Assembly (NCBI GenBank): GCA_003864475.1
Contig: BGZO01000012.1
Span: 1 to 40,546 of the forward strand
DNA length: 40,546 nt
Origin: Candidatus Termititenax persephonae
Lineage (GTDB): Bacteria; Margulisbacteria; Termititenacia; Termititenacales; Termititenacaceae
Reading direction: 5' to 3'
Below the pieces are notes generated by a model. That model worked only from the letters and a program-made list of their open reading frames with translations, ran no database searches and was not told where the DNA came from. Shown here in pieces: positions 24,081-34,192 of this stretch. The translations under genes were made by a program, and so were the position numbers. Position 1 is the first letter of the stretch. The number at the start of each line of letters is the position of its first letter.

Positions 24081-24113
24081 ACGGGGTATAATTTTTGCAA
24101 AACGGGGTATAAT
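24081..24113 (+). promoter_or_regulatory. Tandem 12-bp repeats ACGGGGTATAAT, 21 bp apart
   Basis: The dodecamer occurs at 24081-24092 and 24102-24113. Each ends in a perfect -10 box; a start near 24120 from the second would just precede the leader ORF's ribosome site. The 21-bp period equals two helical turns, so a dimeric regulator could bind. The region is shared with the divergent PIN module. Confidence 0.5.
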
Positions 24114-24138
24114 ATCGTGTAATACAGTGGGAGAAAAG

Positions 24139-24189
24139 ATGAATAATTATTGCTTAACAGTTGCCCCCCCCCCCCCCCAGAATTTTTAG
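24139..24189 (+). CDS. Leader ORF containing a 15-C tract (poly-proline), element A
   Basis: GGGAG (24129-24133) precedes an ATG by 5 nt. In the current length the ORF is M-N-N-Y-C-L-T-V-A-P-P-P-P-Q-N-F, stopping at TAG (24187-24189) inside the first hairpin. With 14 or 17 C the frame stays open for 24 more codons and stops at TAA (24251-24253) in the terminator loop. The second poly-C element behaves the same way. The sequence is direct; that it is translated is inferred. Confidence 0.5.
   Translation: MNNYCLTVAPPPPQNF
24164..24178 (+). repeat. Homopolymer tract of 15 C
   Basis: Fifteen consecutive C lie inside the leader ORF. Such tracts slip during replication and are a common phase-variation device. 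The only longer one in the window is the 20-C tract at 31706. Confidence 0.9.
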
Positions 24190-24207
24190 TGTAAATTCAC
24201 TAAAAAT
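24182..24207 (+). other. AT-rich hairpin directly after the C tract, element A
   Basis: ATTTTTAGTG (24182-24191) and CACTAAAAAT (24198-24207) are perfectly complementary around a 6-nt loop. The two shorter reading frames after the C tract stop inside this hairpin. Confidence 0.7.
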
Positions 24208-24239
24208 CCATTTCAGAACAAACGCAATAAAAAACAATT

Positions 24240-24274
24240 CCCTAACTAGTTAAGGCTGGTCAGGGCTTTTTTTT
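24240..24274 (+). terminator. Intrinsic terminator/attenuator with TTAAGG loop, element A
   Basis: CCCT-A-ACTAG pairs with CTGGT-C-AGGG around the loop TTAAGG and is followed by eight T. Outer arms CAAACGC (24219-24225) and GCGTTTG (24275-24281) extend the pairing around the A and T runs. It lies before, not after, a gene, which suits an attenuator. The same loop and tail follow the second C tract. Confidence 0.75.
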
Positions 24275-24308
24275 GCGTTTGGAATAAATAAAGAGAGGAG
24301 GTGTTTTT

Positions 24309-24623
24309 ATGAGTGATTTTAATTTTTCTGTTCCGGCAAATAATGATGTTTATCGTCAGTATAATGTCAGTAATCCGCGTTGGCTAACCAAAAGCCGTGA
24401 TTATAATCCGCCTCCTGGGTACAGGAGAGAGCAGGATAACATAACGGAGCGCGATGTTATGAAGCTGTTGAGAGAGGGTAAGACTGAAACAGTAGATGCA
24501 TTGATTGCGCAACTCAAGTCTGATAATAAACTTGTCGAAGCGGATAAAGTGGAATTAATCAAGAAAGAATTTACAGAAGCAGGTAAAGAAGGAAGAATCA
24601 TATTAATGTATGGTGAGGAGTAG
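24309..24623 (+). CDS. Hypothetical protein downstream of poly-C element A
   Basis: The 104-residue protein is unrecognised. It is polar, with an N-terminal proline/asparagine-rich part (Y-N-P-P-P-G-Y near 33-39) and a helical charged second half (about 45-95). There is no signal peptide or membrane segment. GAGGAGG gives an excellent ribosome site 7 nt before the ATG, unlike the leaderless core genes. It is enclosed between the poly-C attenuator and its own terminator, so it forms a single-gene unit. AT-rich composition suggests acquisition. Confidence 0.65.
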   Translation: MSDFNFSVPANNDVYRQYNVSNPRWLTKSRDYNPPPGYRREQDNITERDVMKLLREGKTETVDALIAQLKSDNKLVEADKVELIKKEFTEAGKEGRIILMYGEE

Positions 24624-24748: not shown

Positions 24749-25027
24749 GTGAGTGTTAATTTACGCGAGGATGTTAAGCCGATTTCTTATATCAAGACCA
24801 ATGCTGCGGATATGCTGGATTATGTGAATGAACGCAAAAACCCGGTGATTGTTACCCAGCACGGTGAGGCCAGAGGGGTTTTTCTGGACATTGAGTCCTA
24901 TCAAAATATGATTAACGCCATGGCTTTGCTGAAATTGCTACAAATTTCTGAGAAGGCTATTGAGGCCGGAGAGGTTTATGACCATGCGGAAGTTTTTGCG
25001 GAGTTGAAGAAAAGATTAAGGTCTTAA
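24749..25027 (+). CDS. Phd/YefM-family antitoxin
   Basis: The 92-residue protein shows the Phd/YefM fold: I-S-Y-I-K-T-N-A-A-D-M-L-D-Y-V (about 13-27), P-V-I-V-T-Q-H-G-E-A-R-G-V (about 32-44) and a C-terminal helical tail that would bind the toxin. It likely represses its own promoter. The start is GTG with AGGGGTG upstream. The toxin gene follows after 3 nt. Confidence 0.88.
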   Translation: MSVNLREDVKPISYIKTNAADMLDYVNERKNPVIVTQHGEARGVFLDIESYQNMINAMALLKLLQISEKAIEAGEVYDHAEVFAELKKRLRS

Positions 25028-25030
25028 AAC

Positions 25031-25369
25031 ATGCCGGAAAGACTGCGGGTAAAGTGGACTGCTCCGGCGCGCGTCGATTTATTTGAAATAATTGACTATC
25101 TTGCGCAGGACGAGCGGGCTGCCGCTGTCAATGTTTTGCACAAACTGGAAACCGCGGCGCATAAACTGGCCGTTTTCCCGCAATGGGGCAGGGTTGTCCC
25201 AGAATTGGCGAAGTATGGTTATCTGCTGTATCGTGAAATAGTAAGCGCTCCCTGGCGGATTATTTATAAGGTCGCGCGGAAAACCGTGTTTGTATTGTCC
25301 GTACTGGACAGCCGGAGAAATATCGAAGATATTATTCTCAAAAAAATTGTACTCCAGCCGCCGATATAA
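25031..25369 (+). CDS. ParE/RelE-superfamily toxin
   Basis: The 112-residue protein fits the ParE/RelE fold: V-K-W-T-A-P-A-R-V-D-L-F-E-I-I-D-Y-L near the start, G-R-V-V-P-E-L in the middle, Y-R-E-I-V-S-A-P-W-R-I-I-Y-K and a C-terminal V-L-D-S-R-R-N. The R-E-I..Y-R-I-I-Y pattern is typical of ParE gyrase poisons. It is paired with the antitoxin upstream and appears intact, in contrast to the broken PIN module nearby. Confidence 0.88.
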   Translation: MPERLRVKWTAPARVDLFEIIDYLAQDERAAAVNVLHKLETAAHKLAVFPQWGRVVPELAKYGYLLYREIVSAPWRIIYKVARKTVFVLSVLDSRRNIEDIILKKIVLQPPI

Positions 25370-26421: not shown

Positions 26422-27606
26422 ATGTCCGTTCTTTCCATTAATTGCGGCAGTTCTTCTTTGAAATATCTGCTCTACGACTGGGACGCGCAAAAAGTTTTGG
26501 CCAGCGGCTTGATTGACCGCATCGGCCTGCCGGATTCCAATATTGTCCATAAACACAATGACCAAAAAATTGAGCGCAAGGGCAAATGTGCCGACCACCG
26601 CACGGCGATAAATCTGGTGCTGGCTTTTTTGCAAGAAGCCAAGGTGATTCATTCTCTGCAGGACATTGAGGGTGTCGGACACCGCATTGTCCACGGCGGC
26701 GAAAAATTCTCGGCCTCGGCGCGGGTTGATGACGCGGTTTTGGCGGAGATTAAGGCCAACGGGGATTTGGCTCCCCTGCATACGCCGCCCAATGTTGTGG
26801 GCATCGAGTCGGCGCGTGCGGTCATGCCGGACACGCCGCAGATAGTGATTTTTGACACAGCTTTTCATCAGACCATGCCCGAACACGCCTACTCTTACGC
26901 GTTGGACTATGCCTTGGCGCAGAAATATAAGATACGCAAGTACGGTTTTCATGGCAGTTCGCACCGTTATGTGTCCGAGCGCGCGGCGGAATTGCTGGGC
27001 GGAAAAAACGCTTGGAAATTAATCATCGCGCATGTGGGCAACGGCTCGTCGCTCTCCGCCGTGCGGGGCGGCAAGTGTGTCGATACGTCGATGGGCTTGA
27101 CCCCGCTGGCCGGGGTGATTATGGGTACGCGCACCGGAGACATTGACCCGGCGGTGGTGCAGGTTTTGGCGGATAAATTGGGCGAGCCTTTGCCCCAGAT
27201 TTTAAATAGATTAAATAAAGAGAGCGGGATGCTGGGTGTCTCCGGCTACTCCGACCAGCGCGATATTATTGCCGGAGCGGAGAACGGCGACGCGCGTTGC
27301 CGGCTCGCCTTGCAAATGCAGGCTTATTCGATAAAAAAATATATCGGCGCGTATCTGGCGGTTTTGGACGGCGCGGACGCACTGATTTTCACAGCGGGCA
27401 TTGGCGAGAACAGCGCCAGCTTCCGGCAGGATGTTTGCGCGGATTTGGGCAATCTCGGCATCAAGCTGGACTTGGCAAAAAACAAAGAGCGCGGCGGCGA
27501 GCGGATAATCTCCGCGCCGGATTCCCGAGTCAAGGTCATGGTCATCCCGACCAATGAGGAGTTTATTATCGCCAGAGATGTGATTGAGATTGTGCGGGGC
27601 AAATAG
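26422..27606 (+). CDS. ackA: Acetate kinase
   Basis: The 394-residue enzyme converts acetyl phosphate and ADP to acetate and ATP. Hallmarks are S-I-N-C-G-S-S-S-L-K-Y (4-14), V-G-H-R-I-V-H-G-G near 86-94, F-H-G-S-S-H-R-Y-V near 174 and M-G-T-R-T-G-D-I-D-P near 234. GGAGG is the ribosome site. Bases 27153-27203 are present again, exactly and in reverse orientation, at 31622-31672. Confidence 0.96.
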   Translation: MSVLSINCGSSSLKYLLYDWDAQKVLASGLIDRIGLPDSNIVHKHNDQKIERKGKCADHRTAINLVLAFLQEAKVIHSLQDIEGVGHRIVHGGEKFSASARVDDAVLAEIKANGDLAPLHTPPNVVGIESARAVMPDTPQIVIFDTAFHQTMPEHAYSYALDYALAQKYKIRKYGFHGSSHRYVSERAAELLGGKNAWKLIIAHVGNGSSLSAVRGGKCVDTSMGLTPLAGVIMGTRTGDIDPAVVQVLADKLGEPLPQILNRLNKESGMLGVSGYSDQRDIIAGAENGDARCRLALQMQAYSIKKYIGAYLAVLDGADALIFTAGIGENSASFRQDVCADLGNLGIKLDLAKNKERGGERIISAPDSRVKVMVIPTNEEFIIARDVIEIVRGK

Positions 27607-30518: not shown

Positions 30519-31151
30519 TTGGCGCGGCGAAACCGTGCGGCAGAGCAAATGCCTTTTTCCCCATTTCACGCTAAAATAAACCTGATGCGCGGCGGTAAAA
30601 ATACTCTCCGAAAATTTCCCCTGCAGCGGGCTTTTACATTTATGGAGGAAGGCCCGGTCGTTTTATTGAGTACTTTTTATCAGGGGCGGAATAATATAAT
30701 GACCGCCAGCTGCACCATGTCGATGGATTTCAGCCCCATGGTTGGCGTGATGCTGGGGCCGTGGGATTGTTCCTATCGCGCTTTGCTTAAAACCAGAGAA
30801 TGTGTCCTTGCCATACCCGGCGCGGATTTGCTGGCCAAAACTGTCGCTATCGGCAACTGCTCCGGCGCTGAAGTGGATAAATTTGCCGAATATAAACTAA
30901 CGCCCTGTCTGGCCGCGAAAGTAAAAGCGCCGCTGATTGGCGAGGCCTTGAAAAATCTGGAATGTAAACTAATCAAAAAACTTAATATCAACGGCGGCGA
31001 ATTATTTGTCCTGCAGGGTGTCGCGGCCTGGCACAATCCGGCGCGGCGTGAGCAGCGTACTTTTCACGCCAAAGGCGACGGAACTTTTTTTATCGATGGC
31101 CGGCAGGTCAACCTGCGCTCCAAAATGACGCGCTGGCAGGACTGCATTTGA
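30519..31151 (+). CDS. Flavin-reductase-like FMN-binding protein
   Basis: The 210-residue protein fits the flavin reductase-like split-barrel family. V-V-L-L-S-T is followed by N-I-M-T-A-S-C-T-M-S and S-P-M-V-G-V-M-L-G, then R-E-C-V-L-A-I-P and L-E-C-K-L. Such proteins bind FMN and often reduce flavins or act in anaerobic electron transfer. The start is uncertain: TTG 30519 gives the full frame, and ATG 30549 is an alternative. The last 14 codons occur again at 33966-34008, across the inserted island. Confidence 0.7.
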   Translation: MARRNRAAEQMPFSPFHAKINLMRGGKNTLRKFPLQRAFTFMEEGPVVLLSTFYQGRNNIMTASCTMSMDFSPMVGVMLGPWDCSYRALLKTRECVLAIPGADLLAKTVAIGNCSGAEVDKFAEYKLTPCLAAKVKAPLIGEALKNLECKLIKKLNINGGELFVLQGVAAWHNPARREQRTFHAKGDGTFFIDGRQVNLRSKMTRWQDCI

Positions 31152-31337
31152 GACTATTTATTTTTTTATAGCCTTTGAAACAAAATATCGGATTTACGTT
31201 CCAAAATTGTGTATCTAGAGATACCTTCGGGTTCTGGTCTTATACACCGCGTATTCTCTGCCAAATTTATTTTGCAGAAATTTTTCCTCTCTCAATATTT
31301 GCAGATGCAGACCGGGCAAGACCAATATTGCGGCCAC
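31110..31337. repeat. Left copy of a ~228-bp direct repeat flanking the island
   Basis: The segment contains the 3' end of the flavin-reductase gene and, on the other strand, the 3' end of a methyltransferase gene. It matches 33966-34192 with one gap and about 87% identity by eye. Changes in both coding ends are mostly silent or conservative. Confidence 0.88.
31215..31337 (-). pseudogene. C-terminal fragment of a second methyltransferase copy
   Basis: Forty codons encode a tail nearly identical to that of the intact methyltransferase at 34070: L-P-G-L-H-L-Q-I-L-R-E-E-K-F-L-Q-N-K-F-G, then R-E-Y and R-R-Y-L, stop. Homology ends at 31337. Twelve bases at 31342-31353 (GCGCCGGAAAAT) match the region upstream of the intact copy (34726-34737), so the body was deleted between these points. 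Confidence 0.75.
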
Positions 31338-31484: not shown

Positions 31485-31612
31485 TAGAAAAAATCGATGT
31501 ATAAAGAGGGTATATTTTTTCAATAAGTGGGTAATTACTTAGATGAGATTTTGGCGTAGCGAGAGACATAAAAATATTCTCCGTGTTTGAAAATAAGAGT
31601 TGGAGTTTTACC

Positions 31613-31771
31613 ATGAGAAAAAAAATCTGGGGCAAAGGCTCGCCCAATTTATCCGCCAAAACCTGCACCACCAGAAAAAAAATGAATTTAGTATTCATTA
31701 ACAGTCCCCCCCCCCCCCCCCCCCCAACAATTTTTCGCTTGGGTACGCTGAAAATTCAGAGTTTTTCATAA
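31613..31771 (+). CDS. Leader ORF containing a 20-C tract (poly-proline), element B
   Basis: GGAG (31602-31605) lies 7 nt before ATG 31613. The 52-codon ORF contains seven prolines from the C tract and stops at TAA 31769-31771, between the two hairpins. Removing the ackA-derived insert leaves M-R-K-K-M-N-L-V-F-I-N-S followed by the prolines in the same frame. With 21 or 18 C the frame runs 25 codons further and stops at TAA in the terminator loop. Translation is inferred. Confidence 0.5.
   Translation: MRKKIWGKGSPNLSAKTCTTRKKMNLVFINSPPPPPPPTIFRLGTLKIQSFS
31616..31683 (-). other. ackA-derived antisense insert with 11-bp flanking repeats
   Basis: Bases 31622-31672 are the exact reverse complement of ackA 27153-27203 (51 nt, codons for V-V-Q-V-L-A-D-K-L-G-E-P-L-P-Q-I). 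AGAAAAAAAAT occurs at 31616-31626 and 31673-31683, bounding the copy like a target-site duplication. The inserted length is 57 nt, so the leader frame is kept. Confidence 0.85.
31706..31725 (+). repeat. Homopolymer tract of 20 C
   Basis: Twenty consecutive C follow TTAACAGT, as in element A (TTAACAGTTG before 15 C). Length is as assembled and may vary in the population. Confidence 0.9.
31729..31756 (+). other. AT-rich hairpin directly after the C tract, element B
   Basis: AATTTTTCGC and GCTGAAAATT pair with one mismatch around an 8-nt loop. Position and AT character match the hairpin at 24182-24207. Confidence 0.6.
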
Positions 31772-31786
31772 ATGCAGTTTATAGTG

Positions 31787-31821
31787 AAACCCTGTCCGGT
31801 TAAGGCCGGTCGAGGTTTTTT
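31787..31821 (+). terminator. Terminator-like hairpin with TTAAGG loop, element B
   Basis: AAACCCTGTCCGG pairs with CCGGTCGAGGTTT around loop TTAAGG, with two mismatches, followed by a T run and GTGTTTGGAGTAAA. Element A has the same loop and GCGTTTGGAATAAA after its T run. Confidence 0.65.
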
Positions 31822-31854: not shown

Positions 31855-31989
31855 ATGTGTCCGGAGAAAGAAACTTTGAATCTAGGGACTATTAGAATTG
31901 CTAAAAATGACCCAAAAACAAAGGTACTTTTGAAAAAGTATTTTTCGGCCATTCTAGAGGGGGATTTTACTTACAATCCTTTCAGATAA
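31855..31989 (+). CDS. Hypothetical 44-residue protein
   Basis: The ORF starts 6 nt after GGGAGATG and ends 24 nt before the 616-residue gene. The peptide is basic in its middle (D-P-K-T-K-V-L-L-K-K) and unrecognised. It is the first gene after the poly-C attenuator and could be translated with its neighbour. Short length keeps confidence low. Confidence 0.4.
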   Translation: MCPEKETLNLGTIRIAKNDPKTKVLLKKYFSAILEGDFTYNPFR

Positions 31990-32013: not shown

Positions 32014-33864
32014 ATGGGCCTGAATTTTGATCCAAATATTTTAGATATGAAAAGTAGGATAGGGCATGCACTTAAAGAAAACAACTCTAATGGAAAAGAA
32101 TCAATACTAAAAATCAATGGTGAAAGAGTGCCCTTGAATGGGAGTACCATAGAGGACAAGGCACACGAAATAGTATCGCATATTTTGGATGCTTTTAAGG
32201 AAGAGGGAATACAAGCCGTTAAAATAACATTAGAAACGCCGGCTAATGAGGCTGATAAGGTGTTATTAGAGATTACTGAAGGGTCTGATAGTATTAGTGT
32301 AAAATATTCTCCTCCTGATATGCCATTTTATAGTGAGTATATGTATCCCCAATCTGGCGGAACGCCAGAGATAAGACTGGTGCAAGAATCTAACCCCGCC
32401 GTCCGTACCCAGGAAGATTTACTTAAAGATTTCAACAGGCAATGCTCGCAGAATGGTATAACAATGCTTGATAATAATATTCTTGATAATGATAAATTCA
32501 AAATTGAGATTGGGTATAGTGACGCTGGCAACTATACCTTGAAATTTATATTAAAGGAGGGTTTTGAGCTTAGGGACCAATATGGAAAAACAGCGTCAAA
32601 TATTATTAAGATTAATTTTTTTGAAAATTCGCAGAAAGCATTAAAGATTACCCCTGAAGGGAATATATTTCTATCGTCTAGCAACGAGCCAACTTATATA
32701 ATAAAATCGCCAGAGGAAATCCAGCGAGAAAATAAATTTAGAGAACGGCTTCAAAGTGGAACAGATTTTCCAGAGGGAAAATACGATTTATCTCGTATAA
32801 TGAGAGAAAGAGGAGGGGAAAGGGCTACTATACAGCTACCAAATAACAAATATATGTCATACACAACCGATTATGTTAGTGGTGCTTATACCATTACTAT
32901 AGGCAACGATATTAATCAGCAAGGTAGGATTATTCCTTCTGATGAGACAAGAAGTATTAAAATTAAGGCCGCTGAATTGGAAAAATTCCCAATTTTAAAG
33001 AAGTTGCTAAGTGAAATATCCAATAGTATTCAAAATATTGAAGACTATAAGAATAAATCTTTAGAATTCAAACACGAAAAAAAACTGCTTGATTCGATAC
33101 TGCCGAATACTAAATATGAGGAATCAAGAACACAGGAAATTCAGAGAATCATTGATTCCCTAGAAGCGAAATACGGTGAGAAGTGGGGAATAAGATTTGA
33201 AAAAAACGGGGATGGTAACTATACAATAACTTTTGGAGGCAATACAAGAGTTTCGCCTGAAAACAAAACAATTTTATATAATCCTAATGACGACATGCTT
33301 TATGGTTTACAAATAATTGAGCGTGGGGACAATACGCTTAATGTGTATACCGAAAAAAGTGGAATCTATGAAGTTAAAATTCCCACAGCTAAAGAGATCG
33401 AGCAAGAAAAAATACAAGCGGCAGCAGAAGAATCAATAAGGAACATACTTAAAGAGCCGCCTAAGGGAAACTACGAGATAATGTTTTCGGAAAGAGGCGA
33501 TATAACTCCTAGAAAACTACCGAAATCTGAAGCGGTTACTGTAAAAATTCCAAATACTGCTCCGGAAAAATACATGACATATATTCATTTTGAATTTAAG
33601 GACAGTGAACCTTTTTGGAGTATTTCTATGGGTACGGAGCTTGATGATGAATATGGTGCGGTATTAGTTGATGATAGTCCGCAGGTTCACATTCCTGTCA
33701 GTGAATTAAAGCATTATCCAGAGTTTGTGTCGCTTCAAGAAGCCATAAGAAGCGTTAACTATGGGCCGCAAGACTCCAAAGACAAAGGGTCATCCTTATA
33801 CTACTACATCAACGACGGTGGAAATTCTATTAGTGTTCCTTATCCACCTGAAGAAACGCCTTAA
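32014..33864 (+). CDS. 616-residue hypothetical protein with internal A-B-A-B duplication
   Basis: TTAAGGAGGAATAT gives a near-perfect ribosome site. No family is recognised. Two ~230-residue units follow each other. Module A is at about 146-250 and 378-482, sharing G-N-Y-T and a closing E-E/K-I-Q/E-x-E. Module B is at about 253-340 and 483-580, sharing P-x-G-x-Y, K-Y-M-x-Y and a P-I/E-x-x-x-L-x-E/A-I end. It is beta-rich, acidic and AT-rich, with no signal peptide or membrane helix. Residues 1-145 are separate. It is the main cargo of the island. Confidence 0.75.
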   Translation: MGLNFDPNILDMKSRIGHALKENNSNGKESILKINGERVPLNGSTIEDKAHEIVSHILDAFKEEGIQAVKITLETPANEADKVLLEITEGSDSISVKYSPPDMPFYSEYMYPQSGGTPEIRLVQESNPAVRTQEDLLKDFNRQCSQNGITMLDNNILDNDKFKIEIGYSDAGNYTLKFILKEGFELRDQYGKTASNIIKINFFENSQKALKITPEGNIFLSSSNEPTYIIKSPEEIQRENKFRERLQSGTDFPEGKYDLSRIMRERGGERATIQLPNNKYMSYTTDYVSGAYTITIGNDINQQGRIIPSDETRSIKIKAAELEKFPILKKLLSEISNSIQNIEDYKNKSLEFKHEKKLLDSILPNTKYEESRTQEIQRIIDSLEAKYGEKWGIRFEKNGDGNYTITFGGNTRVSPENKTILYNPNDDMLYGLQIIERGDNTLNVYTEKSGIYEVKIPTAKEIEQEKIQAAAEESIRNILKEPPKGNYEIMFSERGDITPRKLPKSEAVTVKIPNTAPEKYMTYIHFEFKDSEPFWSISMGTELDDEYGAVLVDDSPQVHIPVSELKHYPEFVSLQEAIRSVNYGPQDSKDKGSSLYYYINDGGNSISVPYPPEETP

Positions 33865-33965
33865 CGTAAAAGTTAGGAGTGTAAAAATAAAATCCGTTGG
33901 AGTAGTTTCAGAACCAGAACTGGCTATACTGCTGGTGCCAAAATATATTTGTACTGGCACAGATT

Positions 33966-34192
33966 AACCTGCGCTCCAAAATGACGCGCTGGCAGGACTG
34001 CATTTAAAACGGTTTATTTTTTATAACCTTTGAAACAAAATATAGAATTTACGTTCCAAAATTGTGTATCTAGAGGTACCTCTTGGTTCCGGCCTTGTAC
34101 GCGCAATATTCTCTGCCAAATTTATTTTGCAGAAATTTTTCCTCTCGCAATATTTGCAGATGCAGGCCGGGCATGACTAGCACAGCGGCCAC
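33966..34192. repeat. Right copy of the ~228-bp direct repeat flanking the island
   Basis: Begins with the last 14 codons of a flavin-reductase gene (N-L-R-S-K-M-T-R-W-Q-D-C-I, stop) with no gene body before it, and ends inside the intact methyltransferase. It mirrors 31110-31337. The inverted repeat GTGCCA/TGGCAC (33935-33960) lies just outside. Confidence 0.88.

Follow-up and report, generated by a model that had tools for sequence, protein, structure and literature searches.

Can the length of a cytosine homopolymer decide whether the gene behind it is transcribed? The question is raised by a locus, here called element A, in a 40,546-nucleotide stretch of Candidatus Termititenax persephonae DNA (the window), where a leader ORF with its own ribosome site runs through 15 C and is followed by a hairpin, a terminator, and a gene with a strong ribosome site. 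An earlier note on this DNA had described these parts, all of which were found where it had placed them (Table 1), and had read them as a phase-variable attenuator. Comparison with related loci supports that reading, through a reading frame and a stop position conserved among homologues and through sister loci with other outputs, and we consider it quite probable that the length of the C tract in element A sets the frame of the leader and, with it, the state of such an attenuator.

Parts and Reading Frames of Element A

The three frames that can follow the tract have different fates. With the assembled C15, the leader ends at a TAG (24187-24189) and with C16 at a TAA (24192-24194), both within hairpin 1, whereas the frame entered at 14 or 17 C passes the hairpin and ends in the terminator. 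Frame translation thus reproduced exactly the earlier account of two frames closed in the first hairpin and a third open for 24 codons. The placement of its stop in the terminator loop also held, the one departure being trivial: the loop had been given as TTAAGG, but RNA fold prediction makes it a UAAG tetraloop of which the TAA at 24251-24253 is part.

No recognizable -35 box lies upstream of leader A, and its candidate -10 box is absent from the list returned by a simple consensus promoter scan. The window gave zero matches to Rfam 15 at the gathering score and none in a tRNA search. It contains 21 overlapping C8 matches, all from two tracts, against 1.5 expected from dinucleotide shuffles. 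In the fold predicted for A without leader translation (OFF), the Shine–Dalgarno sequence (SD) of the downstream gene has an unpaired probability of 0.81, and SD sequestration was rejected for this element. In both A and the second element of the window, B, the interval from T run to SD, about 21-23 nt, is too short for a second promoter. Of the features of an amino-acid attenuator of the trp/his type, a run of regulatory codons and a mutually exclusive antiterminator, the leader of A has a proline run, and a non-exhaustive look at the predicted folds of A and B found no antiterminator.

Table 1. Features of elements A and B in the window
Feature	Position	Strand	Remarks
Candidate -10 box TATAAT, leader promoter A	24108-24113	+	Read directly from sequence
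Ribosome site GGGAG, leader ORF A	24129-24133	+	Read directly; GGAG-type sites before the same leader in relatives
Leader ORF A as assembled (MNNYCLTVA-PPPP-QNF*)	24139-24189	+	Closed frame; ATG 24139
C15 tract A, proposed slippage site	24164-24178	+	Long frame open at 14 or 17 C
Hairpin 1 of A, stop trap (ATTTTTAGTG-taaatt-CACTAAAAAT)	24182-24207	+	26 bases; stops of two frames
Open frame A, RIFSVNSLKIHFRTNAIKNNSLTS*	24179-24253	+	C14/C17; 24 codons; stop TAA 24251-24253, terminator loop
Intrinsic terminator A (stem CCCTAACTAGT/GCTGGTCAGGG, loop TAAG, then C + T8)	24240-24274	+	Hairpin 24240-24265, T run to 24274
Ribosome site AGGAGG of controlled gene A	24297-24302	+	Predicted accessible once terminator forms
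Controlled gene A, 104 aa, no assigned family	24309-24623	+	ORF behind AGGAGG
Leader ORF B as assembled (MRKKIWGKG...MNLVFINS-PPPPPPP-TIFRLGTLKIQSFS*)	31613-31768	+	Closed frame; GGAG at 31602-31605
C20 tract of B	31706-31725	+	Long frame open at 18 or 21 C
Hairpin 1 of B	31731-31754	+	
Open frame B, NNFSLGYAENSEFFINAVYSETLSG*	31726-31803	+	Stop TAA 31801-31803, terminator loop
Terminator B (CCCTGTCCGG TTAA GGCCGGTCGAGG TTTTTT)	31790-31821	+	
44-aa ORF behind B	31855-31989	+	
616-aa ORF after the 44-aa ORF of B	32014-33864	+	Own AGGAGG-like site

In the proposed mechanism, the leader ORF would be translated through the C homopolymer, and gain or loss of C at replication would set the reading frame of the ribosome as it exits the tract. 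In two frames the ribosome would stop inside hairpin 1, the terminator would fold, and transcription would end before the gene at 24309-24623, giving the OFF state of the assembled C15 sequence. In the third (C14, C17), it would continue for 24 more codons and halt at the loop stop, so that no terminator could form and the gene would be transcribed (ON). The same course is proposed for element B and for five or more homologues from related genomes, and at further loci the same input, a C tract with a stop hairpin, would act on an SD-sequestering helix or on a directly fused coding region. Sequence comparison shows the parts and how they are conserved, together with the frame rule, where the stops lie, and the structures predicted for them. 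Slippage in the living cell, leader translation, antitermination, and an ON/OFF effect on the gene are what we infer.

Element B and Neighboring Genes

Element B has its parts in the same order as A, with a mean column identity of 77% over the aligned region. Within its leader ORF, positions 31622-31672 are an inverted piece of the acetate kinase gene (27153-27203), 100% identical and 51 bases long, a length that preserves the leader frame. A direct repeat of about 235 bases (31104-31337 and 33960-34192), comprising the 3' end of a flavin reductase gene and the DNA that follows, flanks B and its genes and suggests an insertion or duplication of this block. The controlled gene of A is followed directly by genes for a Phd/YefM antitoxin and a ParE toxin (24749-25369).

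The gene behind A shares 35% identity with the gene behind a homologous leader (L161), over about 90 N-terminal residues. Searches of the controlled genes against Pfam and PHROGs gave no useful name beyond weak fiber-like, transglutaminase, EF-hand, and InlB-repeat matches.

C Tracts and Their Possible Instability

The genome from which the window comes (1.83 Mb, 201 contigs) contains 39 tracts of at least nine C, counted with their preceding base, and TTA-C9 occurs 20 times in it against a single occurrence of the reversed pattern. Some tracts occupy N-terminal coding positions; others sit in leaders or in what appear to be promoter spacers (TTGACT-TA-Cn-TAwAAT). The pattern of a C tract plus stop hairpin was matched 20 times among 84,980 species scanned, all of the matches being Candidatus Termititenax aidoneus or termite-gut Margulisiibacteriota assemblies. 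Among 38 surrounding genomes, each of the six belonging to the genus has the module, as does one of the two from a sister genus, and the 30 others lack it; by our own count there are 38 distinct sites, spread over seven related genomes.

Tracts in other settings were noted along the way. Four of them (L045, L082, L112, L116), with C11-14 between TTGACT and a TAwAAT box, precede lipoprotein genes and another gene and point to probable phase variation by promoter spacing. In five (L034, L059, L057, L104, L119), long coding frames have C20-C22 at their start or close to it; their products include, as judged by eye, a glycosyltransferase-like and a fucosyltransferase-like protein. A distinct C11-12 element, CATGCAAGT-Cn-ATCGATATATAGGCATAA ... 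GGGAGGTGAT-ATG, was seen at L065 (three sites) and L070 and recurs every 2.5-3.5 kb on one contig, before successive genes. In L155 (C5TC8) and L225 (C5TC5) one T lies inside the tract and the frames are closed; these are perhaps switches becoming locked OFF.

Among homologues with conserved flanks the tract length ranges from 6 to 22 C, a spread that points to instability of the DNA. Four of the 39 tracts have a contig end no more than 25 nt away (0.2 expected, P 7e-5), and seven contigs of this assembly (C18, C25, C28, C33, C83, C84, C91) break at or near a tract. Such breaks fit mixed tract lengths in the sample, but poor sequencing of homopolymers would produce them as well. A leader start is supported at 20 loci, 18 of them assembled OFF and 2 ON; this fits a population that is mostly OFF, yet the ON share is below one third.

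The predominance of closed frames admits another reading, in which slippage of RNA polymerase or of the ribosome on the C run would give a mixture of frames at every tract length, and an output that is graded and not heritable. Long homopolymers are plausible slippery sites and, with most loci assembled closed, function without DNA switching would need slippage of the RNA or the ribosome. A slippery site under selection should, however, keep a preferred length, and the range of 6-22 C argues the opposite. We consider such a rheostat unlikely, although it and switching at the DNA level are not mutually exclusive.

One Open Frame, Several Predicted Outputs

At loci with the stop hairpin, two of the frames that follow the tract generally meet a stop inside the hairpin or shortly past it, and the third runs longer. 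We defined classes of loci by the destination of this open frame. The alpha class comprises A, B, L118, L161, L155, and L078; here the open frame extends 14 to 15 codons past the hairpin, to a stop codon in the loop of a terminator whose stem differs among the loci. The stop falls in the loop in 6/6 of these discovery loci, with a chance of 0.02-0.07 per locus under full dinucleotide shuffling; several of them are related, leaving perhaps four independent cases. A seventh (L215), where a TGA overlaps the tetraloop, was found after the rule had been fixed. The earlier note had made conservation of the stop-in-loop frame in homologues a test of its reading, and the frame is kept in L118, L161, B, L155, L078, and L215 despite their different stems. 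Chance as the origin of the C tracts and of the stop-in-loop arrangement was rejected on the shuffles, on the excess of TTA-C9 over the reversed pattern, and on the per-locus odds of the stop.

In family 1, represented in the window's genome by L040, L050, L068, and L152, the open frame extends through a GC-rich terminator to a stop a short way past it. The family is without a convincing leader start. At L066, which carries a family-1 switch, a one-base deletion makes the frame read on, and at L067 and L035 the open frame differs from that of the rest of the family. Together these loci make up seven paralogous family-1 switches in the window's genome (L040, L050, L066, L067, L068, L152, L035); at least five have a conserved 90-base upstream block, and the genes behind the seven have weak fiber-like matches.

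The beta and gamma classes have no clear U-tract terminator. Their open frame instead contains an anti-Shine–Dalgarno sequence (UUUUCUCCUAAU or UUUCUCCU) complementary to the ribosome site of the next gene. The next genes at beta loci encode lipoproteins with glycine-rich linkers, for which a surface role is likely; those at the other loci belong to no clear family. In five beta leaders (L096, L105, L107, L145, L157) the ATG lies about 7 bases after a TATAAT, with no SD, in a leaderless-like arrangement. At three more loci the open frame is fused directly to a protein, a lipoprotein with a signal peptide at L042 and L043 and what appears by eye to be a methyltransferase-like protein at L178. 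The related loci with other outputs have the same switch, and their outputs would likewise require translation of the open frame.

We folded each leader twice, once bare and once with a ribosome placed where the open frame ends. Without translation, the unpaired probability of the SD is 0.00-0.09 in 17/17 beta and gamma loci; with translation it rises to 0.38-0.95 in 15 of them, the SD staying paired in the ON model at L105 and L170. In these models, with an SD that is paired unless the leader is translated and is freed in 15/17 cases, beta and gamma behave as SD-sequestering translational attenuators. The SDs of the alpha class and family 1 are generally no more hidden than in shuffles, and there the predicted gate is the terminator.

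In beta and alpha the third codon position carries most of the differences in the open frame: counted over pairs, so that related pairs enter repeatedly, the three positions have 50/31/127 in beta and 74/43/119 in alpha. Counted by variable columns, beta gives 4/3/8 (P 0.09), which is suggestive only, and among all the classes examined family 1 and gamma have no third-position bias. The best indication that the open frame is coding comes from the fusions at L042, L043, and L178.

Some coding conservation would also be expected were the leader a phase-variable small protein gene, its stop overlapping its own terminator by chance and the downstream gene being independent; genes often end near their terminator. 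That arrangement would need a promoter in the short interval between T run and SD of A and B, where there is no room for one. It is further disfavored by the beta and gamma loci, which keep the leader but carry, in place of a terminator, a helix that hides the downstream SD, and by the three loci that fuse the frame to a protein. These helices and fusions make control of the following gene the common denominator, and an independent small gene is accordingly very unlikely.

The stem of the stop hairpin covaries across 20 distinct copies, with 92% of the cells paired and four pairs showing changes on both sides. Its covariation score, 0.182 against 0.128 in shuffles, was reached by 2/500 shuffles and exceeds that of all slid versions. 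Hairpin arms often reach a two-base center, like a palindrome, and some copies lie away from C tracts, as might be found if the hairpin were a DNA site, either a protein-binding palindrome or the end of a mobile repeat, that spreads together with the C tract and leaves the frame rule as a by-product of copying. But in the window's genome a C tract immediately precedes 13 of the roughly 18 copies, a stop-in-loop frame persists although the terminator stems differ, and the anti-SD helices inside the open frame would be left unexplained, all of which makes a DNA site a shade less credible still. Least probable is that stalling on the PPPP codons, through EF-P or the sensing of translation rate, is the signal in place of tract length: the C run does encode proline in every frame and so puts several prolines into each leader, but because ON and OFF frames both contain them, the prolines alone could not tell the two states apart, and the conserved stop traps would be without a role. 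In the attenuator set by tract length, the poly-proline may have a role in timing.

Taken across the classes, we lean toward a portable input, the C tract with its two-frame stop hairpin, joined within one genus to interchangeable outputs: a terminator with the stop in its loop, a read-through terminator, an SD-sequestering helix, or a fusion. Dozens of lipoprotein and uncharacterized genes would then form a stochastic attenuator regulon, riboswitch-like in design, with tract length replacing the ligand.

Discussion

The earlier note knew of no described system of this form, which was wrong. Phase-variable leader-peptide attenuators with GCAGA repeats control pil1 and pil3 of Streptococcus gallolyticus (Danne et al. 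2014, PMC3894217), and for pil1 the dependence on leader translation and on the terminator was shown by mutation (PMC3894217). There, as proposed here, a repeat tract lies within a leader ORF, the frame leads to a stop either well before or within or beyond the terminator, and the ribosome destabilizes the terminator, in that case ahead of surface genes; the majority of pil1/pil3 cells are OFF, as are most assembled loci here. Element A shares with pil1-type systems a leader ORF with ribosome site and repeat, an early versus in-loop stop, and a terminator without space for a second promoter. Where the streptococcal loci use a pentamer at two pilus loci, the present elements use a C homopolymer and a dedicated, covarying stop hairpin, number about 38 copies in seven genomes, have a predicted second output by SD sequestration, and belong to an unrelated phylum, where the case is built from sequence.

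Several other mechanisms share parts of the design. Simple sequence repeat (SSR) contingency loci include the poly-C/poly-G genes and promoters of Neisseria, Campylobacter, Helicobacter, and Bordetella, and in this genome and its relatives, too, homopolymers of variable length occur in promoter spacers and in N-terminal coding regions; the tracts of A and B differ in lying within a separate leader and not in the gene or promoter. In E. coli pyrBI, a leader ORF runs into the terminator as it does here, and a ribosome close behind the polymerase prevents termination, their distance following UTP, whereas here access to the terminator would be set by the reading frame. The translational attenuators of ermC and cat resemble beta and gamma in that leader translation opens a helix hiding the SD, but there antibiotic stalling brings this about, and in beta and gamma the frame would decide.

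A variable homopolymer in an mRNA leader is also proposed here to set expression as the G-repeat of the Helicobacter pylori tlpB leader does, but that repeat is read by a repeat-targeting sRNA, RepG (PMC8295292), and ours would act through the reading frame. Three things are new: the stop-trap module as a portable unit, its use throughout the genus, and a version that sequesters the SD. For this last version the literature searched, with incomplete coverage, gave no precedent of a repeat-controlled output of this kind.

If this reading is true, an uncultured phylum evolved on its own, and put to general use, a form of attenuation driven by repeats that is known from one streptococcus, at two pilus loci. 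With the rule of a single open frame that ends in or past the blocking structure, such switches could be found and their ON lengths predicted from sequence alone. Relatives of these termite-gut bacteria are attached symbionts, and the switches would suggest that these bacteria diversify their surface stochastically.
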